A model generated the notes under the pieces. That model did no database searches. It had not been told where the DNA came from and was given only the letters and a program-made list of their open reading frames with translations. The position numbers and the translations under genes are program-made. From Mesoflavibacter sp. (GTDB lineage Bacteria > Pseudomonadota > Alphaproteobacteria > UBA8366 > Aestuariispiraceae), in contig CP051228.1 in assembly GCA_017792345.1 (NCBI GenBank), positions 558,001-622,000 on the forward strand: DNA of 64,000 nt, read 5' to 3'. Shown here piece after piece: positions 48,642-64,000 of this stretch (the stretch's first letter is position 1; each line of letters opens with the position of its first letter).

Positions 48642-49676
48642 TCAGATGCCGCGATCCGGCCAGGTGTCGTTGACGCGATAGCCCCCCGGCCAGGGATCGT
48701 CGGGATCCAGCATGTGCTGATGCGTGCCGGTGATCCAGGCGCGGCCGCTGATTTCCGGCAGGATGGCGGGACGCCCCCCGACCGTTGCATGCCCGACGAT
48801 CCGGCCGGTGAAACGCGAACCGATGATGGAGCGGGCGTGGAAACATTGGCCCTCCGACATCCGGCCGCGCGCCGCCAGAAGCGCCATGCGGGCGGAGACG
48901 GCCGTGCCGGTCGGCGACCGGTCGACCTTGCCGGGCTGGATCGCGACGGCGGAGGCCGCTTCGAACCCGTCCGGCGTTTCCTGCAACGGCCCGGCAAACA
49001 GGCAGAAGGAAATGTGCCGCCAATCCGGATTGTCCGGATGATCGAAGCCGAGCTGCGCATTCGCCGCCGCGATGATCCGCGATCCGGTCCGGGCGATATC
49101 GGTCGCCTCGTCCGCCGCGATGTCGAAGCCCAGCGCCGCGGCGTCCACCACGACGAAGCTGTCGCCGCCGAAAGCCGTGTCGACCCGGATCGTGCCCAGG
49201 CCTTCGACCTCCAGAGCCGCGTCCAGTGCGCAGGCGAAGGACGGCAGATTGCGGACATGGATGCGCTGCGCCTTGCCGTCGCGGCATTCGGCCCGGACCC
49301 GGATCAGCCCGCCCGGCGCTTCCAGCACCAGATGGGTCTCCGGCTCCGTCATCGGCAGGATGCCGCCATCCAGCAGCACGGTCGCGACGCAGATCGAATT
49401 CGACCCGGACATGGGCGGCGTATCTTCCGGCTCCATGATGATGAACCCCATCTGGGCGTCCGGATGTTTCGGCGGCACCAGCAGGTTCACATGGCGGAAC
49501 ACCCCGCCGCGCGGCTCGTTCAGGACGAAGTTGCGCAGCGCCCCGTCGCGGTCGATGAAACGGCTTTGTTCCCACAGGGTTTCGCCCGGCGGCGGCGCGA
49601 CGCCGCCGACAATGACATCCCCGACCTCGCCCTCGGCGTGGCAGGAAATGACATGGATCGTCTGGCTGCTGCGCAT
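48642..49676 (-). CDS. Proline racemase/hydroxyproline epimerase family protein with Ser/Thr active site
   Basis: A 344-residue proline-racemase-fold protein of normal length. The two positions that are Cys in racemases are Ser90 ([10 protein letters not shown]) and Thr256 ([11 protein letters not shown]). Cys-Thr members are 3-hydroxyproline dehydratases and Ser-Cys members include 4-hydroxyproline epimerases; a Ser-Thr pair has neither thiol. The ATG at 49676 begins at the family's usual [14 protein letters not shown] start. It faces the MATE gene and is preceded by zur. Its substrate is probably a cyclic imino acid, but the chemistry is open. Confidence 0.85.
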
Positions 49677-49698
49677 GGCGGTCCAGCCTTGTCGAAGA

Positions 49699-50112
49699 CT
49701 ATGCGTTTTCCTGACATTCAATGCAGACCCCGCGCAACTCTATCGTGGTCTTGCGCAGCAAAAACCTGGCGTCTTTCGAAAGACCGTCGAGCTGCCGGGT
49801 CAGCCTATCATCGCCGATCTCCGCCACCTGACCGCACCGTTCGCAAATCATGAAAGCGATGGTTTCAAGGCCGTCGCATCCGGGATGGCGACAGGCGACG
49901 AAGGCGTTGAGGCTTTCGAGGCGATGGACGAGGCCCAGCTCGACCAGCTTGTCCAGGGCGCGGTAGACCTGAAGCGGCGCGCGGAACCCTTGATCCCGCA
50001 ACCGGTCCAGAATCGTATAGGCGCTGAGCGGCCCATCCGACCGCGTCAGGGCACCCATGACCAGGGATTGGTTCTTCGTCAAATCGTCGAATGCCCTGTC
50101 GTGACCGTTCAT
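49699..50112 (-). CDS. zur: Fur family zinc regulator Zur
   Basis: A 137-residue Fur-family repressor. The winged helix includes [27 protein letters not shown]; the C-terminal zinc sites are two CxxC pairs, Cys90/Cys93 (ICERCGQ) and Cys130/Cys133 (CIECQ), plus Cys74/His76. The start overlaps the ZnuB stop (ATGA). Cotranscription with znuB and znuC points to zinc rather than iron sensing. The frame upstream of ATG 50112 overlaps znuB and is not used. Confidence 0.9.
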
Positions 50113-50921
50113 GAACCGTCCCCTTTGACCGGGCGGCGCGGCAAGGCGGGCAGGATCGACAGGACGAACAGGGCAAGCGCCGCCACGACGATGCTGGGCC
50201 CGGCCGGCGTATCCCAATTCAACGACCCGAACAGCCCGCCGACGACGGAGACCGCACCGATGCCCGCGGCCAGCAATGCCATCTGTTCCGGACCCGAGGC
50301 GAAGCGGCGCGCGGCCGCCGCCGGAATGATCAGCATCGCGGTGATCAGCAAGACCCCGACGATCTTCATGGAGATCGCGATGACGGCGGCCATCAGCAGC
50401 ATGAAGACCAGATTGGCCCGGTCGGGATTCATGCCTTCCGCCTCTGCGACCTCACGGTTGACGGTGGCGGCGAAGAGAGGCCGCCAGATTGCGGCCAGAA
50501 TGGCCAGCACCAGGGCGCCGCCCAACCAGATCACGGCAATATCCATCTTTGAGACGGCCAGGATATCCCCAAACAGAAGACCCATCAGATCCATTCGGAC
50601 CCACGTCATGAATCCCAGCACGACAAGGCCAAGGGCCAGGGCGGAATGGGCCAGAAGTCCCAATAGCGCGTCCGACGACAAGGTCGCCCGCCGCTGCATC
50701 AGGATCAGCGCGAGCGACACGCAGGCCGAGACGGCAAATACGGCGAGCGTCACATTGACTTCGAACAGAAACGCCAGCGCGACTCCCAGCAAGGCGGCGT
50801 GCGACAGGGTATCCCCGAAATAGGCGAGCCTGCGCCAGACGATGAAACAGCCCAGCGGCCCGGCGACCAGGGCAACCCCGGCCCCCGCCAGAACGGCGCG
50901 TGCGAAGAAATCGTCAAGCAT
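50109..50921 (-). CDS. znuB: Zinc ABC transporter permease ZnuB
   Basis: A 270-residue permease with eight hydrophobic segments. The conserved start (ARAVLAGAGVALVAGPLGCFIVWRR, then YFGDTLSHAALLG) and EAEGMNPDRANLVFMLLMA and LIIPAAAARR motifs identify the ZnuB/TroC family. The ATG at 50921 lies inside the 3' end of znuC by 8 bases. It imports Zn2+ across the inner membrane with ZnuA and ZnuC. Confidence 0.95.
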   Translation of the reverse strand: MLDDFFARAVLAGAGVALVAGPLGCFIVWRRLAYFGDTLSHAALLGVALAFLFEVNVTLAVFAVSACVSLALILMQRRATLSSDALLGLLAHSALALGLVVLGFMTWVRMDLMGLLFGDILAVSKMDIAVIWLGGALVLAILAAIWRPLFAATVNREVAEAEGMNPDRANLVFMLLMAAVIAISMKIVGVLLITAMLIIPAAAARRFASGPEQMALLAAGIGAVSVVGGLFGSLNWDTPAGPSIVVAALALFVLSILPALPRRPVKGDGS

Positions 50922-51780
50922 CGTGCAGTTCCTCGTCCCGGCGCGGCGCAGGCGCCTCCGCCCTGTTGGAATGATCGTGGCTGTGGCCGTGATCATGACC
51001 GTGGTCGCCGTGATCGTCCGTGATCGTGCCATCGGCATGCATGACGCGGCCGTCGGCCAGATGGGTATGGTCGTGATGGTGTTCGTAGACGGCCAGGGCC
51101 GATGCCGCGCGCGCCCCGAACAGCGCCTTGTATTCCGGACTGGACGCAACCGTCGTCGGCGTCCCGGAACAGCAGACATGGCCGTTGAGGCAGACCACCC
51201 GGTCGGTCGCGGCCATGACGACATGCAGATCGTGCGAGATCAGCAGCACGCCGCAGTTCAGCTCGTCCCGGATTTGCTTGATCAGATCGTAGATCGCGAT
51301 CTCGCCGGTGAAATCGACGCCCTGAACCGGTTCGTCCAACACCAGAAGATCGGGCCGGCGCGCCATAGCACGGGCCAGCATGACCCGCTGGAACTCCCCG
51401 CCGGACAGGGTGCGCACCTCAGCGTCGATCAGATGCGACATGCCGGTCGCGGCCAGTGCCTTGGCCGCACTATCCTTTGTCACCCCGCCGGTCAGGAACA
51501 TGAAGCGGCGGACCGTCAGCGGCAGCGTCCAATCGACCGCCAGTTTCTGCGGCACATAGGAAATGCGCAGACCGGCCCGTTGCGCGGCCCCGCCCTCGTC
51601 CGGCCGCAGCAGCCCCAGGGCCATCTTCGCCGTCGTCGATTTGCCGGATCCGTTCGGACCGATCAGCGTGACGATTTCACCGACATCGACCTTCATGGTA
51701 ACGCCGCGCACCAGCCAGCGGCCGGCCCGCAGAACACCTGCATTGTTCAGCGTAAGAAGCGTGCTTTCCGTGTTTGGCAT
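50914..51780 (-). CDS. znuC: Zinc ABC transporter ATPase ZnuC with His-rich tail
   Basis: A 288-residue ATPase: Walker A GPNGSGKST near residue 42, signature LSGGEFQRVMLARA, Walker B LLVLDEP. After the ATPase core a tail of about 55 residues is rich in His and Asp, with repeated HDHGHSHDH-like runs, likely a cytosolic zinc buffer. ATG 51780 follows from the family's usual length. It is the first gene of the znuC-znuB-zur operon, divergent from znuA. Confidence 0.94.
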   Translation of the reverse strand: MPNTESTLLTLNNAGVLRAGRWLVRGVTMKVDVGEIVTLIGPNGSGKSTTAKMALGLLRPDEGGAAQRAGLRISYVPQKLAVDWTLPLTVRRFMFLTGGVTKDSAAKALAATGMSHLIDAEVRTLSGGEFQRVMLARAMARRPDLLVLDEPVQGVDFTGEIAIYDLIKQIRDELNCGVLLISHDLHVVMAATDRVVCLNGHVCCSGTPTTVASSPEYKALFGARAASALAVYEHHHDHTHLADGRVMHADGTITDDHGDHGHDHGHSHDHSNRAEAPAPRRDEELHDA

Positions 51781-51840
51781 CAGCGTCCGGCAGGTCCCAA
51801 AAATTTCACCGTTCGGGGATTGCGCGCGCTTATCGCACAC

Positions 51841-51879
51841 GTTATACCGTTACGCAATCGTGTTACGAAATAACATTTC
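51841..51879. promoter_or_regulatory. Candidate Zur box between znuC and znuA
   Basis: TGTTACGAAATAACA (51861-51875) is an inverted repeat with TGTTA/TAACA arms and continues into ATTTC, resembling alphaproteobacterial Zur boxes. A related GTTATACCGTTAC stretch lies 20 bases before it. The position between divergent zinc-uptake genes supports shared Zur repression. Confidence 0.6.
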
Positions 51880-51906
51880 ATCCCTGCGACTCCCCCTGGA
51901 GGTCCC

Positions 51907-52953
51907 GTGCGACAGTTCCAATCCTTGCTTCTCGCGTCCACCCTGCTTGCCGTCCCTGCCGCCGCTCAGGCGGAAGTCGCCGTGGTCGCGTCGATCAAAC
52001 CGGTTCATTCGCTCGTCACGGCCGTCATGGACGGTGTCGGCGAACCGGGACTGATCATCGACGGGGCGGGATCGCCGCATACCTATGCGCTCAAGCCCTC
52101 GCAGGCGCAAATGCTGCAATCCGCCGATATCGTGTTCTGGGTCGGGCATGAATTGGAGGCATTTCTGGAGAAGCCGCTGGAAACCTTGGGCGCCAACGCC
52201 AGGTCGGTGGAACTGATCGACGCGCATGACCTCGCCAAGCTCGGCTTCCGTGAGGGCGGTGCCTTTGAGATGCATGATCATGATGACGCGCACGACCATA
52301 AGGACGAGCATGGGCATAAGGACGAACACGGGCATGATAGCCACGGCCATGACCACGATCATGAGAAACAGGCGGAACATGATCATGGGCACGATCACGG
52401 TGATGCCGGGCATGACGACCATGCAGATGGCGGGATCGATCCCCATATCTGGCTCGACCCGCTGAACGCCAAGGCCCTGGTTCACGAAATCGAAGAGGCC
52501 CTCGCCGCCGCGGATCCGGAAAATGCGGCACGTTACGAGGCCAATGCCCAAGCCCTGATGGCCCGCCTCGACAGCCTGGTCACTGAGATCGACGGCGAGT
52601 TGACGCCCGTCAAAGGCAAGGGGTTCATCGTCTTCCACGATGCCTATCGCTACTTCGAAAACCGGTTCGGCGTCGCGGCTGCCGGGTCCATTACCGTGTC
52701 GCCGGAGGTCATGCCGGGCGCAGAACGCGTGGCGGAAATTCAGGCGAAGGTGGCGGAACTCGGCGCGGCCTGCGTCTTCGCGGAGCCGCAATTCGAACCG
52801 AAGCTGGTCGCGACGGTCGTCGAAGGAACGCCCGCAAAGACCGGCGTTCTGGACCCGCTGGGCACCGAATTCGATAACGGGCCGGATCTTTACTTCGCGC
52901 TGATCCGCGGCATGGCGCAGTCGATCAAGACCTGCCTGGCCGAAGCGAGCTGA
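51907..52953 (+). CDS. znuA: Zinc-binding periplasmic protein ZnuA
   Basis: A 348-residue cluster-9 binding protein. Signal peptide residues 1-22 (ending AQA), zinc ligands His58 (SPHTYALKPS) and His180 (DPHIWLDP), a third His in FHDAYRYF and an Asp near DPLG. A His/Asp-rich loop of about 50 residues (123-172) sits between the first and second ligands, as in high-affinity ZnuA. GTG 51907 has GGAGG four bases upstream. Divergent from znuC. Confidence 0.95.
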   Translation: MRQFQSLLLASTLLAVPAAAQAEVAVVASIKPVHSLVTAVMDGVGEPGLIIDGAGSPHTYALKPSQAQMLQSADIVFWVGHELEAFLEKPLETLGANARSVELIDAHDLAKLGFREGGAFEMHDHDDAHDHKDEHGHKDEHGHDSHGHDHDHEKQAEHDHGHDHGDAGHDDHADGGIDPHIWLDPLNAKALVHEIEEALAAADPENAARYEANAQALMARLDSLVTEIDGELTPVKGKGFIVFHDAYRYFENRFGVAAAGSITVSPEVMPGAERVAEIQAKVAELGAACVFAEPQFEPKLVATVVEGTPAKTGVLDPLGTEFDNGPDLYFALIRGMAQSIKTCLAEAS

Positions 52954-53006: not shown

Positions 53007-54167
53007 TCAGCGCCGGAACAGCCGGTCGCGCAGTACGCCCCACAGCAGCGCCAGGACGCTGAGTTGCCGCTGCTGAGCCTCGCCGATGTCCTCGCCGGCC
53101 AGAAGTCGGCCAAGATTTCCGGCGAAATCCGACGACAAGCGCGACGTGAAATCCCGTACCAGGCCGGATCGGCCGAACTGCGCCAATGGGCCGGTTAGCT
53201 TGAACCGCACCTCGATGTCGACGGCGGTCCGTTCCTCGGCCTCGGTGCGCAGCGCATAGGTCAGCTGCCCCTGAACATTGGTGCCGCTCTTGGCATCCGC
53301 CCCTTCGCCGGACAGGACGACGCGGCGGGCGTTGGCATCGACCTGCTGGTCGAGCGTCCCGTTGAACCCGGCCGAAATCGGACCGAAGCGGATGGTCAGA
53401 CGGCCCTGGATCCGGTCGCCCTCGACGGCCGTGACCTCCGCACCCGGCATGCAGCGGGCGACGGTCGGAATATCGGTCATGACCTCCCACAATTTGGTGC
53501 GCGGCTGCTCGGCCTTCATGACGAGGGTCAGGACGGTCCACCCGTCATCGTCCACCCGCATGACGGGCTTGCTGATCGTCGCGGACGCCGCACCCGAACC
53601 GGCGGATGCATCCTTCCGCTCCGCAACCTCAAAGCTCGGCGGCGGCACGTCCGGCGCGGCGCGGCCCAGCGGCGCGATGGGGGCCCCGCAAGGCGCCTTC
53701 TCCGCCGCCGTTTCCGCGACCACATCGGAAATCGCCTCGACAATCCCCTGATAGCCGGTGCAACGGCAAATATTCCCGCTCAACGCATGACGGATCCGGG
53801 CCTCGTCGGGCGTATCCAGCCGGTTCACGATGTCGCGCGCCGTGACCAGCATGCCCGGCGTGCAGAAGCCGCATTGCAGTCCGTGGCGTTCGGAAAATGC
53901 CTTGCGCAGCCGGGCCATGGTCGGGTCGTCGTCGAACCCTTCCACGGTGCGAATATCGGACCCGTCGCACGCGGCGGCCAGGGCGATGCAGGACCGGCCC
54001 GGCTGTCCGTCGATCAGGATCGTGCAGGCGCCACAGACCCCTTGCTCGCAGCCAAGATGCGTTCCGGTCAGCCCCATTTGGCCGCGCAGGAAATCGGCAA
54101 GATGGGTCCGGGCTTCGACGGAACCGCTGACCGGCTGCCCGTTCACGGTAAGGGTGATCGATTTCAT
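53007..54167 (-). CDS. Molybdenum hydroxylase 2Fe-2S subunit fused to a CoxG/SRPBCC domain
   Basis: A 386-residue protein. Residues 1-155 are a xanthine-dehydrogenase-type small subunit with both clusters: Cys40, Cys45, Cys48, Cys60 (plant-type) and Cys99, Cys102, Cys134, Cys136 (helical). After a Pro/Ala linker (about 160-200), residues 205-360 form a CoxG-like SRPBCC domain (PTVARCMPGAEVTAV, RFGPISAGFNGTL). CoxG normally is a separate membrane-recruiting protein in CO dehydrogenase. The fusion probably tethers the enzyme to a membrane or acceptor. Its start overlaps the FAD-subunit stop. Confidence 0.88.
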   Translation of the reverse strand: MKSITLTVNGQPVSGSVEARTHLADFLRGQMGLTGTHLGCEQGVCGACTILIDGQPGRSCIALAAACDGSDIRTVEGFDDDPTMARLRKAFSERHGLQCGFCTPGMLVTARDIVNRLDTPDEARIRHALSGNICRCTGYQGIVEAISDVVAETAAEKAPCGAPIAPLGRAAPDVPPPSFEVAERKDASAGSGAASATISKPVMRVDDDGWTVLTLVMKAEQPRTKLWEVMTDIPTVARCMPGAEVTAVEGDRIQGRLTIRFGPISAGFNGTLDQQVDANARRVVLSGEGADAKSGTNVQGQLTYALRTEAEERTAVDIEVRFKLTGPLAQFGRSGLVRDFTSRLSSDFAGNLGRLLAGEDIGEAQQRQLSVLALLWGVLRDRLFRR

Positions 54168-54982
54168 GACGGATAGACCTGTTGGATCGCACGCCGCAGC
54201 GCGACTTCATGTTGGCGGAGCGAGACCGGATTCGCATCGGGCAGGGTCGCGCGAACCGTATCGGCAAGACCGGACAGGGCCGCAGCCCCCTCGGCCGCGA
54301 GCCGCCGGGAGAAATCATCCAGGACGACCGGCGCGCCGTCCGTCGCCCCCATGACAACGCGGCAATAGCGCTGCCCCGGATCGACAACCAAGGCGCCGAT
54401 CGCCTCCGCGAATTCGCCGACCTTGCGGCAGATCTTGTAATAGCCCCAGCGAACCGATTCCGACCGCTTGGGGATCCGGATGGATTCGATGATCTCGCCA
54501 TCGCGCAAGGCGGTGGTGAACGCGCCCTGCATGAACCCCGTCATGGGCACGTCGCGGCTGCCAGCCGCCCCGCGCAGGGTCAGGACCGCATCGAGCGTCG
54601 TCAGCGTCGTCACCCAATCCGCCGCCGGATCGGCATGGGCCAGCGATCCGCCGATGGTGCCGCGCGTGCGGACGGCCCGGTGGGCAATCCCCCGCGCGAC
54701 ATACTGCATCATACCCCCGGCCGGATCCGGAACCTTGCCATCCTCGAATTCGGCATGGCGCACGGCCGCCCCGACGGTCACGGCACCGGACGCATCCTCT
54801 ATCCGACGCAAGGCCGCCGTTGCAGCCAACCCGACCAGGGCGGACGGGCGTACCAGGCGCAGGTTCAGCATCGGTCCCAGGGACTGGCCGCCGGACATCA
54901 CCTTGACGTCGGCGCCCGACAATTGGGTCAGCGCCTCGTCGACGGTCTCCGCGGCGGAATAATCGAAATCGACGGGCTTCAT
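54164..54982 (-). CDS. Molybdenum hydroxylase FAD-binding subunit
   Basis: A 272-residue CoxM/XdhB-like subunit. FAD-binding motifs include VMSGGQSLGPMLNLRL (residues 31-46), GTIGGSLAHADPAADW (about 113-128) and a C-terminal CO_deh_flav domain. It passes electrons from the 2Fe-2S subunit to the final acceptor. Its start and stop overlap the large- and small-subunit genes in ATGA fashion, so all three are co-translated in one order: large, medium, small. Confidence 0.93.
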   Translation of the reverse strand: MKPVDFDYSAAETVDEALTQLSGADVKVMSGGQSLGPMLNLRLVRPSALVGLAATAALRRIEDASGAVTVGAAVRHAEFEDGKVPDPAGGMMQYVARGIAHRAVRTRGTIGGSLAHADPAADWVTTLTTLDAVLTLRGAAGSRDVPMTGFMQGAFTTALRDGEIIESIRIPKRSESVRWGYYKICRKVGEFAEAIGALVVDPGQRYCRVVMGATDGAPVVLDDFSRRLAAEGAAALSGLADTVRATLPDANPVSLRQHEVALRRAIQQVYPS

Positions 54983-57333
54983 GCCACGGCCTCCGAAGCT
55001 GTCTTTTCCTCGGCCCGGATCAGGGCTTCCAGAATCCGTTCCGGGGTCGCCGGGATGCGGGTCAGTTCGACTCCGCGGTCCTTCAGCGCATCGTTGATCG
55101 CGTTGACGATGGCGCCCGGCGGCGCAATTGCCCCGCCTTCCCCGACCCCCTTCATGCCATGGGCGGAATAGGGCGAGGGACTTTCGATATGTCCCATCTT
55201 CATGCGGGGCACTTCGAAGGCGCCGGGCAGAGTATAATCCTGCAGCGTCGAGGCCAGCGGCTGTCCGTGAACGTCATAGGGCGATTCCTCGAACAGTGCG
55301 GTGCCGATGCCCTGGACCGCGCCGCCGATCAACTGGCCGTCGACGATCATCGGGTTCACCATGCGCCCGCAATCATCCACGACGGCATAATCCAGCAGTT
55401 CGACCTGGCCGGTGTCTTCATCGACGGCAACCACGGCGGCATGGGTCGAATAGGTGAAGACGCCGCTGTCGACCTTCGGCTTATACCCTTCGGTGACTTC
55501 CAGCCCCATCGTGTCGACATTGTCCGGAAGCTGTTCCGGGCGCAGATACCAGGCCTTGCCGACATCGGCGAAGCTGATGCTGGCCTTGCCGGAATAGATC
55601 GCGCCGTCCTTCAGTTCGACGCTGTCCTCCGAACATTGCATCAGATGCGCGGCGATGCGGCGGATGCGCCGGGCCAGCTCGATGCTGGCGCGCGATACCG
55701 CCCCGCCGGCCATGACCATGCCGCGCGACGCATAGGCGCCGGTCGAATAGGGGGTCGACGCGGTATCGCCCAGGGTCACGCGCACGGCATCGAAGGCAAT
55801 GCCCAGTTCCTCCACCGCGACCTGGGACAAGGTCGTTTCCAACCCCTGCCCGATCGTGTGGATGCCTGCCCGGATTTCCAGACTGCCATCCGGCGTCAGG
55901 CGCACGGTCGCCTGTTCATAGCCGGGCACCAGCGGGATGCCCCAGCTTGCGAACACCTTTGTGCCGTGGGCCGATTGTTCGGTGAAGGTCGAGAAACCGA
56001 CGCCGATCCGCCGGCCGTCCGGTTCGCCCGAGGCCTGCCGTTTGCGCACGCCCGCCACGTCGATCAACCCGGCCGCCATGCGCAGCGATTCCGGATAATC
56101 GCCGCTGTCATAATGCTTCCCGGTCACATTCGTGTAGGGCATCTGCGCCGCCTGGACGAGGTTCTCGGCGCGCACATCCATCGGATCGCGGCCGACCTCG
56201 CGGGCGATGGCATCGATCATCAGTTCGATCGCGAAACACACGCCCGGCCGGGCGACGCCGCGATAGGGCGTGAAGGGCGGCTTGTTGGTCGCGACGGAGA
56301 AGGTCTTGCAGCGATAGACCCGGAAATCATAGGGGCCGGGCAGGTTGCCGCCGGCCTGGGCGGCTTCCAGACAGGCCGTGAAGGGCCAGACCGAATAGGC
56401 GCCGACGCTGACGGTCACTTCAGCGTCCAGGCCCAGCAAGCGGCCGCGCTCGTCGGCATAGGCGGTAAGTTTGTAATGATGTTCGCGCGAATTCGCCCCG
56501 GCGGTCAGATGCTCGCGCCGGTCTTCGATCCATCGGAACGGACGGCGCCGCGTCATCGCCAGCCAGGCGACGCAGATCTCTTCCGGTTGCAGCACGCATT
56601 TATAGCCAAAGCCGCCGCCGACATCCGGCGGAATGACCCGGATCTTCGCCTGGTCCAGACCCAGCGTTTCCGACAGGCCGGTCCGGATCATGTGCGGCAC
56701 CTGGGTCGAGGTATAGACGACCAACTGTCCCGCCTGGAAATCCCAATAGGCCAGAACGCCCTTGCCTTCCATCGGGTGCATACATTGCCGCCCGGTATTC
56801 AATTCGCGCGACACCTTGACCGGCGCCGTTTTCGCCAGATCGTCGATGTCGCCGTTTACGGCGGTCGTCAGGAACAGGTTGTCGCCCCATTCGTCATGGA
56901 CCAGGGGCGAGTCGGGGCGCCGCGCGTCGAGACTGTCGACGACCGCGGGCAGTTCCTCGATATCCAGACCGACCGCTTCGGCCACGTCCTCGGCTTCCGC
57001 ACGGGTCGGGGCGATGCACATGGCAATGCATTCCCCGACGAAACGGACCTTGTCCGTCGCCAGGGCGGGATAGTTCGACGTCTTGAAGCCGGGGATGCCG
57101 GAATTCGCCAGGATCGGATTGACCCCGGTCAGATCGGCGGCGGTGAAGACACGATCTTCCAGCCCGGCCGGTTTCGTGATCCCGCGGATTCTGCCATGGG
57201 CGACGGCACTGCGCCGGAACGCCACATCCGACAGGCCGGGCATCGCGATGTCGGAGACAAAACGGCCCCGCCCATGAAGATGCCGTTCGTCTTCCTTGCG
57301 GATAACCCGCGCGCCGATCCCGTCTTTTGCCAT
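54979..57333 (-). CDS. Molybdopterin-binding large subunit of a xanthine-dehydrogenase-family hydroxylase
   Basis: A 784-residue large subunit. MoCo-contact regions include GGGFGYKC, FTPYRGVARPGVCFA, the QGLETTLSQVAVEELG segment and the C-terminal base Glu in KGVGEGGAIAPPGAI. The active-site loop is PYRGVARP, not the AYRCSFR of true CO dehydrogenase, so a CO substrate is unlikely; hydroxylation of an aromatic, N-heterocyclic or aldehyde compound is expected. Preceded by a TRAP uptake system, which may supply it. Confidence 0.92.
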   Translation of the reverse strand: MAKDGIGARVIRKEDERHLHGRGRFVSDIAMPGLSDVAFRRSAVAHGRIRGITKPAGLEDRVFTAADLTGVNPILANSGIPGFKTSNYPALATDKVRFVGECIAMCIAPTRAEAEDVAEAVGLDIEELPAVVDSLDARRPDSPLVHDEWGDNLFLTTAVNGDIDDLAKTAPVKVSRELNTGRQCMHPMEGKGVLAYWDFQAGQLVVYTSTQVPHMIRTGLSETLGLDQAKIRVIPPDVGGGFGYKCVLQPEEICVAWLAMTRRRPFRWIEDRREHLTAGANSREHHYKLTAYADERGRLLGLDAEVTVSVGAYSVWPFTACLEAAQAGGNLPGPYDFRVYRCKTFSVATNKPPFTPYRGVARPGVCFAIELMIDAIAREVGRDPMDVRAENLVQAAQMPYTNVTGKHYDSGDYPESLRMAAGLIDVAGVRKRQASGEPDGRRIGVGFSTFTEQSAHGTKVFASWGIPLVPGYEQATVRLTPDGSLEIRAGIHTIGQGLETTLSQVAVEELGIAFDAVRVTLGDTASTPYSTGAYASRGMVMAGGAVSRASIELARRIRRIAAHLMQCSEDSVELKDGAIYSGKASISFADVGKAWYLRPEQLPDNVDTMGLEVTEGYKPKVDSGVFTYSTHAAVVAVDEDTGQVELLDYAVVDDCGRMVNPMIVDGQLIGGAVQGIGTALFEESPYDVHGQPLASTLQDYTLPGAFEVPRMKMGHIESPSPYSAHGMKGVGEGGAIAPPGAIVNAINDALKDRGVELTRIPATPERILEALIRAEEKTASEAVA

Positions 57334-57410: not shown

Positions 57411-58514
57411 TCAGAGCCCGTAGGGGAAGTCCAGACCGCGCGCCTTCATGAAGGCCAGTTCCGACGTGTTGGTATACGGCATCACCTGCTTCCGGAAGGT
57501 CATCTGGCTGGTATAAACTTCCTTGCTCAACTCGTCCGCTTCACCGGCTTCGGCAATGACCTTGCCGGCCACTTCGCCCAGCGTCTTCAGCGTCGCTTCG
57601 TCCAGGAACTTCATTTCGACGCCATGTTCGGTCTGCAGGGTCTGATAGGCCTGCGCGTTCTTGGCGACGAATTCGGACAGGACCACGCTGTTCGCGGTTT
57701 CGTTGGCCAACTGTACGATGGTCTTCAGGTCGTCCGGCAGATCGTCCCAGGCCTGCTTGTTGATGAAGCAGTCCAGAACGCCGCAGGGCTCCATCCAGCC
57801 CGGCCAGTAGCAGAACTTCGCGACCTTGTGCAGGCCGAACGCCATGTCGTTGAACGGACCGACGAAGTCGGCGCCGTCGATGGCATTGGTCTGCAGCCCC
57901 TGGGGCACTTCGCCCAGCGGCATCTGAACCGGTGTCGCGCCGATTTCGCGCAGCACCTTCGCGCCCAGCCCGCCGGAGCGGATCTTCATACCCTTATAGT
58001 CGTCGATGCTGTTGATTTCCTTGTTGAACCAACCGGCCGACTGCACCGAGGTATTGCCGCTAGGCAGAAATTTGACGCCCATTTCGCCATAGATCTTGTC
58101 GGCGATTTCCTGTCCGCCGCCGAAGCGGAACCAGGCGTTCTGCTCCTGGGTCGTCAGGCCGAAAGGCAGCGGGGTGAAGAACTGAACCGCCGGCAGCTTG
58201 CCCGCCCAGTAAGCCGGATAGCCGTGGCCCATTTCCAGACCGCCATCGGCGACCGCGTCCATCAGCTGCAGCGGCGGGGCGATTTCGCCGGCACCGTAAA
58301 GCTTGATCGACAGTTTCCCGCCCGAGGCCTTTTCGACCATTTCGGACACCATCTTTGCACCGGTCCACAGCAGCGGCGAGTTTTCGCGCCACGTGGCCTG
58401 CATGCGCCATTGGATCTTGCCCTGGGAAATGGCCGGGGCCGACAGGGCGGTTGCCGCCACACCACCGGCGCCCAGAGCACCGGCGGCCTTAAAGAATTGT
58501 CTGCGCTTCATCAT
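57411..58514 (-). CDS. TRAP transporter substrate-binding protein with Tat signal
   Basis: A 367-residue binding protein. The N-terminus MMKRRQFFKAAGALGAGG is a twin-arginine signal, cleaved near APAIS at residue 30. The body matches the mannitol/chloroaromatic-type DctP group (GDFVGPFN-like DGADFVGPFND, IRSGGLGAKVLREIGATP, PGWMEP). It is followed by the molybdenum hydroxylase genes and preceded by the permeases. The Tat signal suggests it is exported folded. Its ligand may be the hydroxylase substrate. Confidence 0.92.
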   Translation of the reverse strand: MMKRRQFFKAAGALGAGGVAATALSAPAISQGKIQWRMQATWRENSPLLWTGAKMVSEMVEKASGGKLSIKLYGAGEIAPPLQLMDAVADGGLEMGHGYPAYWAGKLPAVQFFTPLPFGLTTQEQNAWFRFGGGQEIADKIYGEMGVKFLPSGNTSVQSAGWFNKEINSIDDYKGMKIRSGGLGAKVLREIGATPVQMPLGEVPQGLQTNAIDGADFVGPFNDMAFGLHKVAKFCYWPGWMEPCGVLDCFINKQAWDDLPDDLKTIVQLANETANSVVLSEFVAKNAQAYQTLQTEHGVEMKFLDEATLKTLGEVAGKVIAEAGEADELSKEVYTSQMTFRKQVMPYTNTSELAFMKARGLDFPYGL

Positions 58515-58602
58515 TGTCTCCTCGTTCTCCTGTTCACACGGGGCGGATGCCCCTTACCTTCTCCTGACCCGTCTCCGCCCTGGAGGCATCACGCATGGAT
58601 AA

Positions 58603-59985
58603 TCAGAAGAGAAGTTTCGGCAGCCAGGTCGCGATCGACGGGAACATCCAGATCACGGCAATGGCCAAAAGCTGTATGGCGACAAAGGGGATGACGCCGC
58701 GGTAGATGGTCGGGCCGCTCAACCCCTGCGCCACGCCCTGCAGATAGAAGATCGCGAAGCCGAAGGGCGGCGTCAGATAGCTGGTCTGCAGCACGATCGC
58801 CATGGCGACGCCGAGCCAGATCGGATCGACCCCCATGATGATCAGGATCGGCGCGAAGATCGGCACGACGATGAAGATGATCTCGAACGTGTCGATCATG
58901 AAGCCCAGCAGGAACATCAGGAACAGCACGAAGACCGTCGCCCCCAGCGCGCCGCCCGGCAGATCGGCCACGAAGTCGCGGACGACGTCGTCGCCGCCCA
59001 GCCCGCGGAAGACCAGCGAGAAGATTGTCGCCCCCAGCAGGATCGCGAAGATCATGTTGCTGATCATCAGCGTCGACTTCGAAATATCGAACAGCAGGGC
59101 GCGGCTGAACCGGCCCTTGAGCGCGCCCAGAAGACAGGCCCCCATGGCGCCGACCGCAGCCGATTCCGTCGCGGTGGCGATCCCGGTAAGGATCGAACCG
59201 AGCACCAGGATGATCAGCACCAGCGGCGGAATGACCGCGCGCACCATCCGCCGGCCCAGGGAACGCCGTTCATCCTCGGTCATCAGCAGCGGCGGGCAGG
59301 CTTTCGGGTTCATCGCCGCGCGGATCAGCAGCCAGACGATATAGAAGCCGACCAGCAGCAGACCCGGCAGCAGCGCGGCCGAGAACAGATCCGTGATGGT
59401 GACCTGCGCGCCGTCGAACCGGCCCAGTTCCAGATTGGCCTGGGTGTTGGCGTTCTGCAGCATGATGCCCAGCAGGATCAGCACCGTCGACGGCGGGATA
59501 AGCTGCGCCATCGTGCCCGACGCGCAGATGATGCCGCCGGCAAGGCTGGGATCGTATTTCGCGCGCATCATCGCGGGCAGGCTGATCAAGCCCATTGTCA
59601 CGACCGTCGCGCCCACAATCCCGGTCGACGCCGCCAGCAACGCGCCGACGATGATCACCGATATGCCGAGTCCGCCGCGCATGCTGCCGAAAGCCTGGCC
59701 CATGGTCAGCAACAGGTCTTCGGCGATCCTGGACCGCTCCAGAACGACGCCCATAAAGACGAATAGCGGGACCGCGACCAGGGTCTCGTCGGTCATCAGG
59801 CTGACGAACCGGCCGAGGATGGAGGAGGTCATCCCCCAGACGAAAAGGTCGAACTGGGCGCCGATCAAGGCGAAGAGGATGGAGACGCCCGCCAGTCCGA
59901 AGGCGACCGGGAACCCCGTCAGCAGGACGGCGAAGGTCGTCACGAAGAACAGCAGGATGAATAGGGCGTGCATGTCTTCAGCCAT
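58603..59985 (-). CDS. TRAP transporter large permease (DctM)
   Basis: A 460-residue membrane protein with about 12-13 helices and the DctM blocks VPLFVFMGVVLERS, GGIICASGTMAQLIPPSTVL and a C-terminal SYLTPPFGFAIFYLQG. The longer form and sequence belong to the TRAP subgroup with larger permeases paired with Tat-exported binding proteins. It overlaps the small permease gene by 8 bases. Confidence 0.93.
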   Translation of the reverse strand: MAEDMHALFILLFFVTTFAVLLTGFPVAFGLAGVSILFALIGAQFDLFVWGMTSSILGRFVSLMTDETLVAVPLFVFMGVVLERSRIAEDLLLTMGQAFGSMRGGLGISVIIVGALLAASTGIVGATVVTMGLISLPAMMRAKYDPSLAGGIICASGTMAQLIPPSTVLILLGIMLQNANTQANLELGRFDGAQVTITDLFSAALLPGLLLVGFYIVWLLIRAAMNPKACPPLLMTEDERRSLGRRMVRAVIPPLVLIILVLGSILTGIATATESAAVGAMGACLLGALKGRFSRALLFDISKSTLMISNMIFAILLGATIFSLVFRGLGGDDVVRDFVADLPGGALGATVFVLFLMFLLGFMIDTFEIIFIVVPIFAPILIIMGVDPIWLGVAMAIVLQTSYLTPPFGFAIFYLQGVAQGLSGPTIYRGVIPFVAIQLLAIAVIWMFPSIATWLPKLLF

Positions 59986-60511
59986 GATCCCGCGCCCCTT
60001 CCCCGCCAGAATTGCCCAGCAGATGAACCGCGCGGATCAGGTCGGAAAGCCCTTGCAGAGACACCAGCACACAGAAGGCCGGCACCGCGGCCTTCATCAC
60101 ATACATGAACGGCAGCCCATCGATGGACGGCGACATTTCCAGGCTGAAGACCGACCGCAGCACCGCGTTCCACGACGCCGTGCCGATCACATACATGGCC
60201 GGCCACAGCAGGAACAGGACACCGAACACGGTGACCACCGCACGCCCCCGCTCCGACAGCCGGGTGTAGAGCACGTCGACACGGACATGCTTGTTTTCGA
60301 TCATCAGGTAGGACGCGCCCAGCGTGATCACGAGGCCGTTCAGCCAGACGAAGCTTTCGGAAAGCCACGGAAAGCCGAGCTGAAACCCGTATCGCAGGAT
60401 AACGACCGATCCGCCCAGCAGCACGATCACCGGCAGACACAGAATCGCCAGATAGCCGATCCCCCGGCCAAGTCCGTCGATTTTGTCGGCGAGCCACAAT
60501 GCCGCCGACAT
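59978..60511 (-). CDS. TRAP transporter small permease (DctQ)
   Basis: A 177-residue membrane protein with four helices (about 18-40, 50-70, 90-112, 135-157) and the FPWLSESFVWLNGLVITLGASYLMIENKHVRVDVLY pattern of DctQ, shown here only by its parts: a WLNG turn and an HVRVDVLY loop. ATG 60511 is used; the frame to 60556 lies in the promoter region. First gene of the second TRAP/hydroxylase operon. Confidence 0.88.
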   Translation of the reverse strand: MSAALWLADKIDGLGRGIGYLAILCLPVIVLLGGSVVILRYGFQLGFPWLSESFVWLNGLVITLGASYLMIENKHVRVDVLYTRLSERGRAVVTVFGVLFLLWPAMYVIGTASWNAVLRSVFSLEMSPSIDGLPFMYVMKAAVPAFCVLVSLQGLSDLIRAVHLLGNSGGEGARDHG

Positions 60512-60900
60512 CAGCGCACCCCGCCGGGAATGACGGCCGCGCCGGTGGGCGCGCATTCCTTAGGTGAGAACAATTTCATTCCCTTAGGCCCCCAAACTTC
60601 GATCCCTGATGCGACCGGCTTAGCCGAGTTCGCTGTTGTTAATAGGCAGTATACTGAGTTTTTTTTCACTGTCAATCAGACGAAAGAAAACTGCCAAACT
60701 TTGCCTTTTTCAACGCAAAATCAGGTGTTTATAGATTCTCTCAGAAAACAACATTACTTCTCACAGGTCTAAAATGTGTTGAATTATGGGTGACACCGCA
60801 CATATACCTGCGCCCAGCACAAGGCCAGGACCGGACAAACGCTTGCGGCATTCAGCGCCGTTTGCGAGTGTTTTTCTTATAAAGAACGCAAGGAATTGAT
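60512..60900. promoter_or_regulatory. AT-rich divergent intergenic region with a MarR-type dyad
   Basis: About 390 bases between the TRAP operon and the marR gene, unusually AT-rich for this window. It holds no gene I can support. TTCTTATAAAGAA (60874-60886), with perfect 5-base arms, is 14 bases before the MarR start and could be its operator. Promoters for both directions are expected here. Confidence 0.5.
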
Positions 60901-61410
60901 ATGGGAGCGAAAAAAGAAAATCTGGCGGAATCCGAGCAGCCGACGACATTGCTGGAGCGCATGCCGCTCTGGTCCCGACCGGGATTTCTCGTCCGGCGCC
61001 TGCATCAGATCCACTACGCCCTGTTTTTCGAAGAGTGTAAGGAATTCGACATCACGCCGGTCCAATACGGCCTGATGACGACCCTGAAGATGCGGCCCGA
61101 CCAGGATCAGAACTCTCTGGGTCAGGAGTTGGGGCTGGATCGCACCAATGTCGCGGACGTTCTGGTCCGGCTGACCAAGCGCGGCCTGGTGGAGCGCCGT
61201 CGCAGCGAAGAGGACAAGCGCATGGTCCTGGCCCGGCTGACCGAAGAGGGCGAGCGGGTGACCGAGACCATGTACACGTCGATGCAGCGGGCACAGGAAC
61301 GCTTGCTGGAGCCGTTGCTGCCGCAGGAGCGCAACGCCTTCATCACCACGCTCATCCGACTGATCGACGGCAACAACCAGCACGGCAGAACCGTGTTCAA
61401 GCCGAACTGA
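60901..61410 (+). CDS. MarR family transcriptional regulator
   Basis: A 169-residue MarR protein: helical N-terminus (PGFLVRRLHQIHYALFFEECKEFDITPVQYGLM), winged helix (SLGQELGLDRTNVADVLVRLTKRGLVERRRSEEDKRMVLARLT) and a C-terminal dimer helix. AAGGAA precedes the ATG. It is divergent from the TRAP/hydroxylase operon and convergent with the Rieske oxygenase genes, so it probably controls aromatic-compound degradation on one or both sides. Confidence 0.92.
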   Translation: MGAKKENLAESEQPTTLLERMPLWSRPGFLVRRLHQIHYALFFEECKEFDITPVQYGLMTTLKMRPDQDQNSLGQELGLDRTNVADVLVRLTKRGLVERRRSEEDKRMVLARLTEEGERVTETMYTSMQRAQERLLEPLLPQERNAFITTLIRLIDGNNQHGRTVFKPN

Positions 61411-61450: not shown

Positions 61451-62005
61451 CTAGACCGGGAAAACCAGGGCGGTGGGAATGATCAGGCTGTCATAGACAC
61501 AGATCCGGCGGCGCAGAAGCAGGGCCCCATCCGTCCCCCGCGCGAATATGTCGTGATACGATCCGGCCTGATGGATATGGGTGGTCGGATCGTCATGCAG
61601 GGTTTCCAGAACCATGTAGTTCGCCCGGGCGACAACGGCGCCGTCATCGGAAACGCCGATCGCCAGCGTGTTGGTGATGTAGTGGCGCAGGTAGCGCGGG
61701 GCAAACATCGCCGTATGCTGGATCGCGAAGGCGCGGTCCTTCAACATGCCCTTGCCCTCGCAATGCACCAGGCCGACCGGCATGTCATGGTCGAAGTTTT
61801 CCCGCGCCGTCACCGAGTAGAAGGCGTCTTCGGTGAAAAATTCCGGCCAGACCTGAAGATCGCCCTCGTCCAGGACCAGGCTGTACTGAGCGTTGAAATC
61901 CTCCAGCTCGGCACGCAGGCCCCTGCTTTCCTCACCGGTCGGCTTGCGAAAGCCGCCGGCGACGGCGGCCTCTCCGATAATCGGTTTCGACATGAACGAC
62001 ATCAC
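61451..62005 (-). CDS. Aromatic-ring-hydroxylating dioxygenase beta subunit
   Basis: A 184-residue SnoaL/NTF2-like beta subunit. Characteristic blocks are LDEGDLQVWPEFFTEDAFYSVTARENFD, an RYLRHYITNTLAIG segment and a C-terminal LLRRRICVYDSLIIPTALVFPV. It supports the alpha3beta3 oxygenase structure. Its start overlaps the alpha-subunit stop (ATGA at 62002-62005). The pattern is closest to anthranilate/salicylate/benzoate-type oxygenases. Confidence 0.9.
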   Translation of the reverse strand: MMSFMSKPIIGEAAVAGGFRKPTGEESRGLRAELEDFNAQYSLVLDEGDLQVWPEFFTEDAFYSVTARENFDHDMPVGLVHCEGKGMLKDRAFAIQHTAMFAPRYLRHYITNTLAIGVSDDGAVVARANYMVLETLHDDPTTHIHQAGSYHDIFARGTDGALLLRRRICVYDSLIIPTALVFPV

Positions 62006-64000
62006 AGCCCCATTTCCTTGCGCCAGTACGCGTACATTCCCCGAATGGCCGATTCCGAGATCAGCGTATCGGACGTACCGGTCGGTGTTTCCGGATCCAG
62101 CGCCACCAGATGTTCTCCGTCATTGCCGCGCAGCATCCCGTCCTGAACGAACTTCATCGCCTCGTTGTCCTCCAGTCCCAGGAACCCGGCCGGGCCCATC
62201 AGATTGCCCTGCCGCAGGCGATGACGGGTCATTTCCTCGTCGTCGCCTTCATAGCCGAACATGGTCCAGTTCATGACGAATTCGTTCGGCCCTTTCGGTA
62301 CGATCTGGCGAACGCCCAGCGTGTTCATCTCGCGCTGCACGATCAGGTTCGGCCAGATCGTCTGCATCGTCACGGACCAGGGCGAATCGAACTCCGGAAT
62401 GAAATCCATGAATTTCGGTTCGTTCAGCACCATCCCGTCGCGATAGGCCCGCATTTCGCTCTTGGCCGCGGAATCGACGGTCTTTCCGTCGCTCTTGGCC
62501 GACGCCATCGTGCCGTGCCGACCGGTGGCATCGGCGATCATGGCCGATTTGTTGCCCGCGACCAGCAGCCCGAAGGTGACCAGGAAGGTGTGCAGCAGGG
62601 TCGCGTGGTACGGGTCTTTCAGGTTCTCGTGGTACAGCTTCCAATTCCCCGGCACCGTATTGCGGTAGTAGCCCAGGATCGTCAGCTTCCGGCCGTCGAA
62701 GGTGGCGTCGAAATCCGTCAGGATCTCCGGCCCCATATACTCCTCGATCGATTCCATGTCGTCATGGAAGGACGCGAAGACGACGCCGCGCCGGGTCGTG
62801 ACATTGAGCTTCCGGATACCGTGCTGGGTCGGATCGAAATCCTTCGCCATGCCGCCCTTGCCCCCGACACCGCGCCGGAAGGGAACGCCGCTGAGATTGC
62901 CTTCCAGATCATAGGTCCACTGGTGATAGGGGCAGACGAATTCCGTCACCTTGCCTCGCTGTTCGCGGCAGAACTCCGCGGCCCGGTGCGCACAGCGGTT
63001 CTCGAACACGTTCACCGCGCCGTCTTCGCCGCGCACGACGACGACCGGGGTCGGTCCGACGAAGGAGCGCACGAACTGACCCGGCTCGGGAATCTCGGCT
63101 TCCAGCGCGACATAATTCCAGGACCGGCCATGGAAGATGCGCTCGACCTCACGCTGGTAGATTTCGTCGCTGGTATAGACCCAGTCCGGGATCCGATTCA
63201 TGCCGCCTTCGGGCCAAATATAGGGAACCGGCGTGGTGGCCGGGGTCACCGCCTTGCCGATGCAGCCCTCGGGCCGGGAGTCGGACTGGCGTGTTTCAAA
63301 CAAGTCTTCGGGCACGGTATTCCCCCTGCTCATCAAATTGCGGCCTTCCCGAATGGCCGCGGCATCCGAAAATGCGAAGACGGCGCGCAGCGTGTTGTCG
63401 GGATTGATCTGGAACCAGGCCGACGGACCTTCCTCCGCGCCGCCGCGCCGCCGAACCGCGCCGTGGGGATCGGGTATCCCCAGAATTTGGATATTCAGGC
63501 CGAACTGGTCGGACCAGAACCAGGGCACGCCTTCATACCGGGTCTCCGCCCCGACCAGGGAACGGCCCGCCGCCGCCGCCTGATCCTGAGCGTTCTGCCA
63601 AGATTCCAGGCGCATCGGCCCGCCGTTCGGCGCATGCGGATAATTGGCAACGTCGCCCGCCGCGAAGATCGCCGGATCGGAGGTGCGCCCCGTCGCGTCG
63701 ACGACGATCCCGCCATCGACGGAAAGCCCCGCTTCACGCGCCAGCTCGACATTGGGAATGGCACCGACCCCGACGATGACCAGATCCGACGGCACCGTCT
63801 CGCCGGAGGCCAGTCTCACCGCCGACACCGTGCCGTTCGATCCGTCAAAACCGGCGACATCGACGTCCGTGCGGATATCGACGCCCGCCGCGCGGGCCCT
63901 ATCGGCCAGATCTTCCGAGATCTCTGCCGGAAGGATGCGGGACACCAGACGCGCGTCACGTTCCAGTACCGTGACCCGCTTCCCGGTCGCGGCCGCCGTC
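62002..64000 (-). CDS. Ferredoxin-reductase-Rieske oxygenase alpha fusion, 5' end outside window
   Basis: An uninterrupted frame runs to base 64000, so the N-terminus is missing; GTG 63945 is only an internal codon. From the N-side, about 220 residues are the second half of a pyridine-nucleotide ferredoxin reductase: an NAD domain end (GKRVTVLERDARL), the FAD motif FAAGDVANYP and a reductase C-domain (RLESWQNAQDQ). A linker near 63330-63200 leads to a Rieske alpha subunit: Cys318/His320 and Cys338/His341 (numbered from 63945) for 2Fe-2S, and Asp444, His447, His452 around the iron. ATG 63333 could allow an extra internal start. Confidence 0.9.
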   Translation of the reverse strand, partial: TAAATGKRVTVLERDARLVSRILPAEISEDLADRARAAGVDIRTDVDVAGFDGSNGTVSAVRLASGETVPSDLVIVGVGAIPNVELAREAGLSVDGGIVVDATGRTSDPAIFAAGDVANYPHAPNGGPMRLESWQNAQDQAAAAGRSLVGAETRYEGVPWFWSDQFGLNIQILGIPDPHGAVRRRGGAEEGPSAWFQINPDNTLRAVFAFSDAAAIREGRNLMSRGNTVPEDLFETRQSDSRPEGCIGKAVTPATTPVPYIWPEGGMNRIPDWVYTSDEIYQREVERIFHGRSWNYVALEAEIPEPGQFVRSFVGPTPVVVVRGEDGAVNVFENRCAHRAAEFCREQRGKVTEFVCPYHQWTYDLEGNLSGVPFRRGVGGKGGMAKDFDPTQHGIRKLNVTTRRGVVFASFHDDMESIEEYMGPEILTDFDATFDGRKLTILGYYRNTVPGNWKLYHENLKDPYHATLLHTFLVTFGLLVAGNKSAMIADATGRHGTMASAKSDGKTVDSAAKSEMRAYRDGMVLNEPKFMDFIPEFDSPWSVTMQTIWPNLIVQREMNTLGVRQIVPKGPNEFVMNWTMFGYEGDDEEMTRHRLRQGNLMGPAGFLGLEDNEAMKFVQDGMLRGNDGEHLVALDPETPTGTSDTLISESAIRGMYAYWRKEMGL

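Follow-up and report, generated by a model that had tools for sequence, protein, structure and literature searches.

Can a single polypeptide carry a ring-hydroxylating Rieske oxygenase together with its whole electron supply? The question is raised by the end of a 64,000-nucleotide stretch of Mesoflavibacter sp. DNA (contig CP051228.1, positions 558,001 to 622,000; below, the window, whose own coordinates are used), where one minus-strand frame joins a flavin adenine dinucleotide (FAD)/nicotinamide adenine dinucleotide (NAD) ferredoxin reductase to a Rieske oxygenase alpha subunit. The fusion is real and larger than first noted, with the order ferredoxin-reductase-alpha. The gene product is quite probably a natural single-chain, ring-hydroxylating Rieske oxygenase assembled from parts of the class IIB type, and its most likely reaction is the C3 hydroxylation of 6-hydroxypicolinate, the PicB step.

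Open reading frame analysis of the window gives a single minus-strand frame without a stop at 62002-63999. This agrees with the sequence-only reading, which had proposed one reductase-alpha frame with a coupled beta gene; the beta gene does overlap the fusion stop. The window corresponds to C1:558001-622000 of a single-contig complete genome of 4.9 Mb, and its edge falls within the fused gene. Extension past 64000 recovers the full reductase and an N-terminal ferredoxin, in an unbroken frame of 951 residues (window coordinates 62002-64857, minus strand, start at 64857, equal to genome C1:622857). The junction contains no frameshift or hidden stop. The complete chain consists of a Rieske ferredoxin (residues 1-103), an FAD/NAD ferredoxin reductase (129-519), and a Rieske oxygenase alpha subunit (548-951). 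The features of this region are as follows.

62002-64000, minus strand: in-window part of the fused gene, which runs on to 64857 and has 951 residues in total.
63301-64000, minus strand: FAD/NAD(H) ferredoxin reductase domain with Reductase_C, residues 129-519, starting beyond the window at 64473 (from Pfam and the fold of a relative).
63217-63300, minus strand: linker 2, residues 520-547 (boundaries set in this analysis); the counterpart in a relative has a predicted local distance difference test score (pLDDT) below 50 across 17 residues.
62005-63216, minus strand: Rieske oxygenase alpha domain, residues 548-951, with the Rieske site CAH...CPYH, the iron site DPYHATLLH, and the acidic stretch GLEDNE.
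61451-62005, minus strand: oxygenase beta subunit gene, whose start overlaps the fusion stop (TGATG at 62004-62000).

Pfam matches on the full chain are Rieske (3-88), Pyr_redox_2 (130-427), Reductase_C (446-519), and Ring_hydroxyl_A (733-948). A second Rieske stretch lies at 293-375 of the in-window fragment, which is about 579-661 of the chain; the fragment itself has Pyr_redox_2 and Reductase_C, followed by Rieske and Ring_hydroxyl_A. The residues of the CAH...CPYH, DPYHATLLH, and GLEDNE motifs presumably have the usual metal-ligand roles. The nearest solved structure to the fused alpha is salicylate 5-hydroxylase (2e-126). The sole PHROGs match of the protein, phrog_6397 at residues 221-405 of the reductase part (E 1.3e-21), is annotated as ribonucleotide reductase large subunit and is uninformative. 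Every domain required for a self-sufficient oxygenase is found in the fused chain plus beta, and the class IIB parts are all present, namely a glutathione reductase (GR)-type FAD reductase, a Rieske [2Fe-2S] ferredoxin, and Rieske/mononuclear-iron alpha and beta subunits. The class IIB trait of components on separate polypeptides is absent, as one frame encodes them in 23 genomes. An earlier suggestion that electrons are fed without a ferredoxin is ruled out by the N-terminal ferredoxin domain of the same chain, which had escaped notice because the window edge cuts the gene.

The fusion is rare yet spread across two classes. Its stop-free frame occurs in 23 distinct genomes of Alphaproteobacteria and Gammaproteobacteria, comprising the window genus (5), Rhodospirillaceae SYSU D60014, Alcanivorax/Alloalcanivorax (5), Rhodovarius, a plasmid of Paracoccus seriniphilus, family f138 (4), and family f174 (6). 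Identity to the window protein ranges from 55.7% to 86%. A match had to be full-length or near full-length and without a stop; the search sets overlap, and 23 is the number of distinct genomes once repeats are removed. Matches were found in 5/59 relatives searched (five of the six genus members, the window genome among them), 5/43 genomes of the order, 6/385 of the class, and 3/398 of the phylum. Other sets gave 5/46 in the family of G591 and 1/369 in its class (G591 itself), 6/119 in the family of G682, and 4/4 in the family of G176. At least nine of the best 80 loci of a genome-contig scan are fused, as is one of five plasmids examined (40 listed of 805 matching records). The frame is unbroken in four of the five other genomes of the window genus; close relatives are thus fused in the same domain order, and none with separate genes in place of the fusion was found. 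Caballeronia SBC2 looks fused by tblastn and has single stops between the genes, and is counted as split.

Seven of the fused genomes are single-contig (G000, G003, G682, G1242, G1244, G1264, G1265). All 17 aligned fused proteins have intact Rieske, FAD, NAD, and iron-site motifs, including the ferredoxin CTH...CPLH and the reductase GxGxxG motifs, and share an aligned Met start. This motif table covers the first 17 fused proteins; the six later ones were checked for the alpha Rieske motif, which is intact in each. The Pfam domain set is identical in the six other fused proteins scanned (of 22).

In a first alpha tree, the fused rows (17) and the collinear split genes (nine) each form a clade, supported at 99/97 and 98/92, and the two clades are neighbours with support of 90/79. 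The 17 fused reductases likewise form a group (99/97) in a tree of their own, whose terminal pairs and groupings repeat those of the alphas; its deeper joins differ or are unresolved. This is consistent with a history in which reductase and alpha moved together in a single gene. In the reductase tree, the split-operon sequences fall outside the fused group, so the reductase partner of the fusion may come from another source. A second alpha tree, with 20/23 fused rows (three near-copies omitted) and 7/9 split rows, recovers the fused clade at 99/99 but does not resolve whether the split clade is its neighbour. Nested within the fused clade are three rows that lack the full fusion, all from draft metagenome-assembled genomes of 540-830 contigs. 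G1269 (L178:9284-11056) has the ferredoxin joined straight to alpha in about 550 residues, without reductase and in a different neighbourhood; G1286 and G1247 have alpha alone, that of G1247 running off its contig. A view that the fusion was never lost held for the first tree and is disproved by these rows. The trees fit best with a single fusion and later losses.

One gene may also give two products. This alternative extends the one-chain reading: besides the full-length chain, a free alpha would be made from the old alpha initiation site, and hexamers would contain both tethered and plain alphas. We rate it as a real possibility, a little short of even. In 21/23 fused genes, the alpha motif [YHF]xWPxx[GA] is preceded, at a distance of 6-24 codons, by an in-frame ATG with an anti-Shine-Dalgarno energy of -5.9 or lower. 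In the controls, such a Shine-Dalgarno sequence accompanies 14.9% of the 376 remaining in-frame ATGs and is found in 8.3% of windows of 25 codons (first 17 genes, which are related rows). The free alphas of split operons seem, by eye from the translations, to start at about the same place, and an alpha coding sequence in the Paracoccus record NZ_CP067132.1 starts exactly at the conserved ATG. Apart from this ATG, linker 2 differs greatly in both length and sequence among the 17 aligned proteins. On the other side, the window gene has no ATG with a Shine-Dalgarno sequence at the conserved position just before alpha, and its sister in G003 has an internal ATG with a weak one (-2.7). Synonymous resampling finds the observed Shine-Dalgarno sequence stronger than the mean in 21/21 genes, but the fraction of resamples as strong falls below 0.05 in just five genes, near-identical copies from Alloalcanivorax, and is 0.10-0.53 in the remaining 16. 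The internal ATG could also be an inherited relic of the fusion. Because the signal is weakest in the window gene and its sister, dual translation is a good hypothesis for the family, as judged from its sequences, and no more than possible for the window gene.

An internal start at the ATG at 63333 had been suggested earlier. The ATG exists, and an internal start is plausible for the family; this codon is residue 509, inside the Reductase_C match, and is not the alpha-start site of the relatives. The window gene and the G003 gene both have GTG options, which in the window gene start at 63315 and 63249. The first of these is listed here.

63313-63315, minus strand: in-frame GTG inside Reductase_C, a possible internal start, with AGGGGGA upstream and a Shine-Dalgarno free energy of -9.4.

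In the Paracoccus record, positions 398404-401214 (L109:12001-14811) hold an open frame of 937 residues, of which only the alpha part is listed as a coding sequence in the incomplete PLSDB table. The missing entry for the upstream part may be one reason why such fusions go unnoticed. The boldest version is that this is the first family of naturally self-sufficient Rieske oxygenases and that dual translation lets tethered chain and free alpha build hexamers with a sub-stoichiometric electron-supply arm; it is more tentative and seems doubtful.

The substrate is suggested by the neighbouring genes. Upstream of the fused gene lie an AraC-type regulator and then genes whose products match solved structures of an isochorismatase-fold hydrolase (3ot4, 6e-88), a 2,5-dihydroxypyridine 5,6-dioxygenase (7cn3, 7e-126), a deformylase (4l0c, 2e-85), a maleate isomerase (4fq7, 2e-108), and a gamma-resorcylate-decarboxylase-family protein (2dvt, 3e-83). 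The other flank carries a MarR regulator, a tripartite ATP-independent periplasmic (TRAP) transporter, and a three-subunit molybdenum hydroxylase.

60901-61410, plus strand: MarR-family regulator, PicR-like, convergent with the beta gene.
57411-60556, minus strand: TRAP-type transporter (solute-binding protein, large and small permease), named by eye and from the Paracoccus cluster.
53007-57333, minus strand: three-subunit molybdenum hydroxylase, candidate picolinate dehydrogenase PicA (large 54979-57333, FAD 54164-54982, small 53007-54167).

The TRAP large permease has 28% identity by blastp to an annotated TRAP gene of the Paracoccus cluster, and the FAD subunit of the hydroxylase was named by its match to an annotated FAD-binding gene there. 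The small (2Fe-2S) subunit (53007-54167, minus strand) is fused to a CoxG domain, and its counterparts in Paracoccus and on two Variovorax plasmids are similarly long.

In the picolinate pathway described in the available text of PMC10142695, PicA converts picolinate to 6-hydroxypicolinate, PicB (picB1B2B3B4) yields 3,6-dihydroxypicolinate, PicC yields 2,5-dihydroxypyridine, and PicD-G lead to fumarate; its reference list gives PicR as a MarR repressor. PicB is taken here to be a Rieske system, a word that is absent from that text. Family resemblance identifies PicA, PicC, PicD-G, and MarR regulator candidates in the window genome. Since the molybdenum hydroxylase, the decarboxylase-family gene, the MarR gene, and the four 2,5-dihydroxypyridine enzymes are adjacent, the fused gene is most likely PicB, a 6-hydroxypicolinate monooxygenase. 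This assignment replaces an earlier comparison with anthranilate and benzoate dioxygenases. The cluster resembles the pic clusters of Alcaligenes faecalis JQ135 and Bordetella, as far as the text of PMC10142695 covers them, in its dehydrogenase, decarboxylase, four 2,5-dihydroxypyridine enzymes, MarR regulator, and four oxygenase parts; PicB of those clusters has four genes, whereas here three of the four parts are in one chain. The whole pic set, with four separate genes at the PicB position, occurs in P. fluorescens (L039, L040) and Variovorax J22R187 (L041, where of the molybdenum hydroxylase only the large subunit is inside the stretch). Two Variovorax plasmids have all of the set except maleate isomerase within the stretch seen. 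The fetched stretches at the 23 fused loci, with flanks short or contig-ended in several, contain the molybdenum large subunit in 15, a PicC-like decarboxylase gene in 11, and all four lower-pathway genes in 7. The Rhodovarius locus has no pic-set neighbours within 6 kb, and the only pic-type neighbour at the G1288 locus is a weak TRAP match.

A self-contained oxygenase for another pyridine or aromatic acid, such as anthranilate, salicylate, or a different hydroxypyridine carboxylate, is unlikely. Anthranilate dioxygenase AndA models are the best in NCBIfam for alpha, ferredoxin, and beta, and the second for the reductase, after HcaD, and the nearest solved alpha is a salicylate 5-hydroxylase. 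The AndA scores are far under their cut-offs, however (AndAc 408.6 against 750 bits, AndAa 331.6 against 650, AndAb 116 against 150, and AndAd 122.4 against 230), and the fused gene is adjoined by the 2,5-dihydroxypyridine pathway, the decarboxylase-family gene, and the molybdenum hydroxylase.

Further genes of the window and the genome were noted alongside. Positions 49699-52953 hold what by eye is a zinc-uptake-like set of a Fur-like regulator, an ATP-binding cassette (ABC) permease, an ATPase, and a His-rich periplasmic binding protein, and a proline racemase family protein is encoded at 48642-49721, minus strand (Pfam PF05544, 4.7e-134). A second, unfused alpha/beta pair (L007:7515-9387, genome C1 at about 2.76 Mb) has an alpha that is 49% identical to the fused alpha and adjoins, by eye, FAA hydrolase, cyclodeaminase, cupin, and TRAP transporter genes.

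In the proposed mechanism, NADH would reduce the FAD domain of the fused chain. The tethered N-terminal ferredoxin would take single electrons from the FAD and carry them to the Rieske cluster in an alpha domain; they would then pass to the mononuclear iron of a neighbouring alpha in an alpha3beta3 core with separately encoded beta. The likeliest outcome would be the C3 hydroxylation of 6-hydroxypicolinate within the picolinate pathway encoded around the gene. We infer that electrons pass within the chain or hexamer and that no free carriers are needed, as well as the substrate and the alpha3beta3 assembly; the sequence evidence suggests that the enzyme probably hydroxylates a pyridine acid without separate electron carriers. 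An AlphaFold2 model of the 65%-identical L029 protein (54-row alignment) has a mean pLDDT of 79.9, with the ferredoxin module, the reductase module, and the alpha Rieske part confident and residues 107-120 and 518-534 below 50, and fits three modules on flexible tethers. Foldseek of a relative matched TodA/BphA4-type reductases and NagG. Free Rieske ferredoxins sit at the alpha/beta stem, according to the available part of PMC9361823, and this site could be within reach of the tethered domain as well. We considered whether loss of the ferredoxin-docking lysine (K117 of CumDO in that part of PMC9361823) marks tethering, and dropped the idea. The lysine was present in 3/17 fused against 7/9 split genes at first, and five of the six added fused genes have it; with 8/23 fused genes keeping it, no inference is drawn.

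The fusion might instead be a translational convenience, with the chain cut after synthesis and acting as a normal multi-component system. The 14- and 17-residue low-confidence stretches between modules are plausible protease targets, and separate proteins encoded by the split collinear operons probably serve the same function. Against this, the fused state is kept across 23 genomes while the linkers diverged, and no conserved cleavage motif is seen by eye in linker 2 of the 17 aligned proteins; cleavage is quite improbable. Sequencing error, misassembly, or a pseudogene could also join two genes, and errors are a frequent cause of such fusions, but no specific support for this was found here. 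It is ruled out by the recurrence of the stop-free frame in 23 genomes, of which seven are single-contig, and by motifs intact in 17/17 proteins checked.

Several observations weigh against the one-chain PicB reading. The assignment was made from neighbour genes and not by direct comparison to Alcaligenes PicB, and the cut-offs of all 25 NCBIfam families shown are missed. In the L029 model, the catalytic half of alpha is partly poor, and a predicted template modelling score (pTM) of 0.49 means that the domain arrangement is not predicted and that nothing follows on docking. The window genome encodes further reductases of the fused type, which are possible donors. G004, of the same genus, has no full-length match to the fused protein, and the three partial rows inside the fused clade indicate that tethering is not indispensable for such alphas.

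Every domain is familiar, but their combination is not. Salicylate 5-hydroxylase NagGH (PDB 7c8z), described as a Rieske monooxygenase, is the nearest solved alpha and the second-nearest solved beta; unlike the fused alpha, its 442-residue alpha chain carries neither a ferredoxin nor a reductase domain. Anthranilate 1,2-dioxygenase AndAaAbAcAd has the same four component types, each of them the first or second NCBIfam model. In contrast to the fusion, these are separate proteins, and the fused system misses all four family cut-offs. Self-sufficient P450s (CYP116B, P450 BM3) combine an oxygenase and the whole NAD(P)H electron chain in a single polypeptide. Their folds are unrelated to those of the fusion, and the Rieske enzyme presumably still needs its beta subunit. 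NdmD and AIF-like Rieske-FAD proteins have a Rieske domain joined to a reductase, with no catalytic oxygenase alpha in the chain. According to the available part of a 2025 perspective (PMC12445004), no Rieske oxygenase system that is self-sufficient has been identified; the fusions mentioned there are engineered. Searches of open-licence PMC papers showed no natural self-sufficient or fused Rieske oxygenase among the matches listed. The clade provides candidate natural self-sufficient Rieske oxygenases, for which the matching split operons can serve as controls. With it, one can test whether a tether gives better coupling and less oxygen uncoupling, how one ferredoxin can attend to FAD and oxygenase in the same chain, and what linker length is needed in nature.
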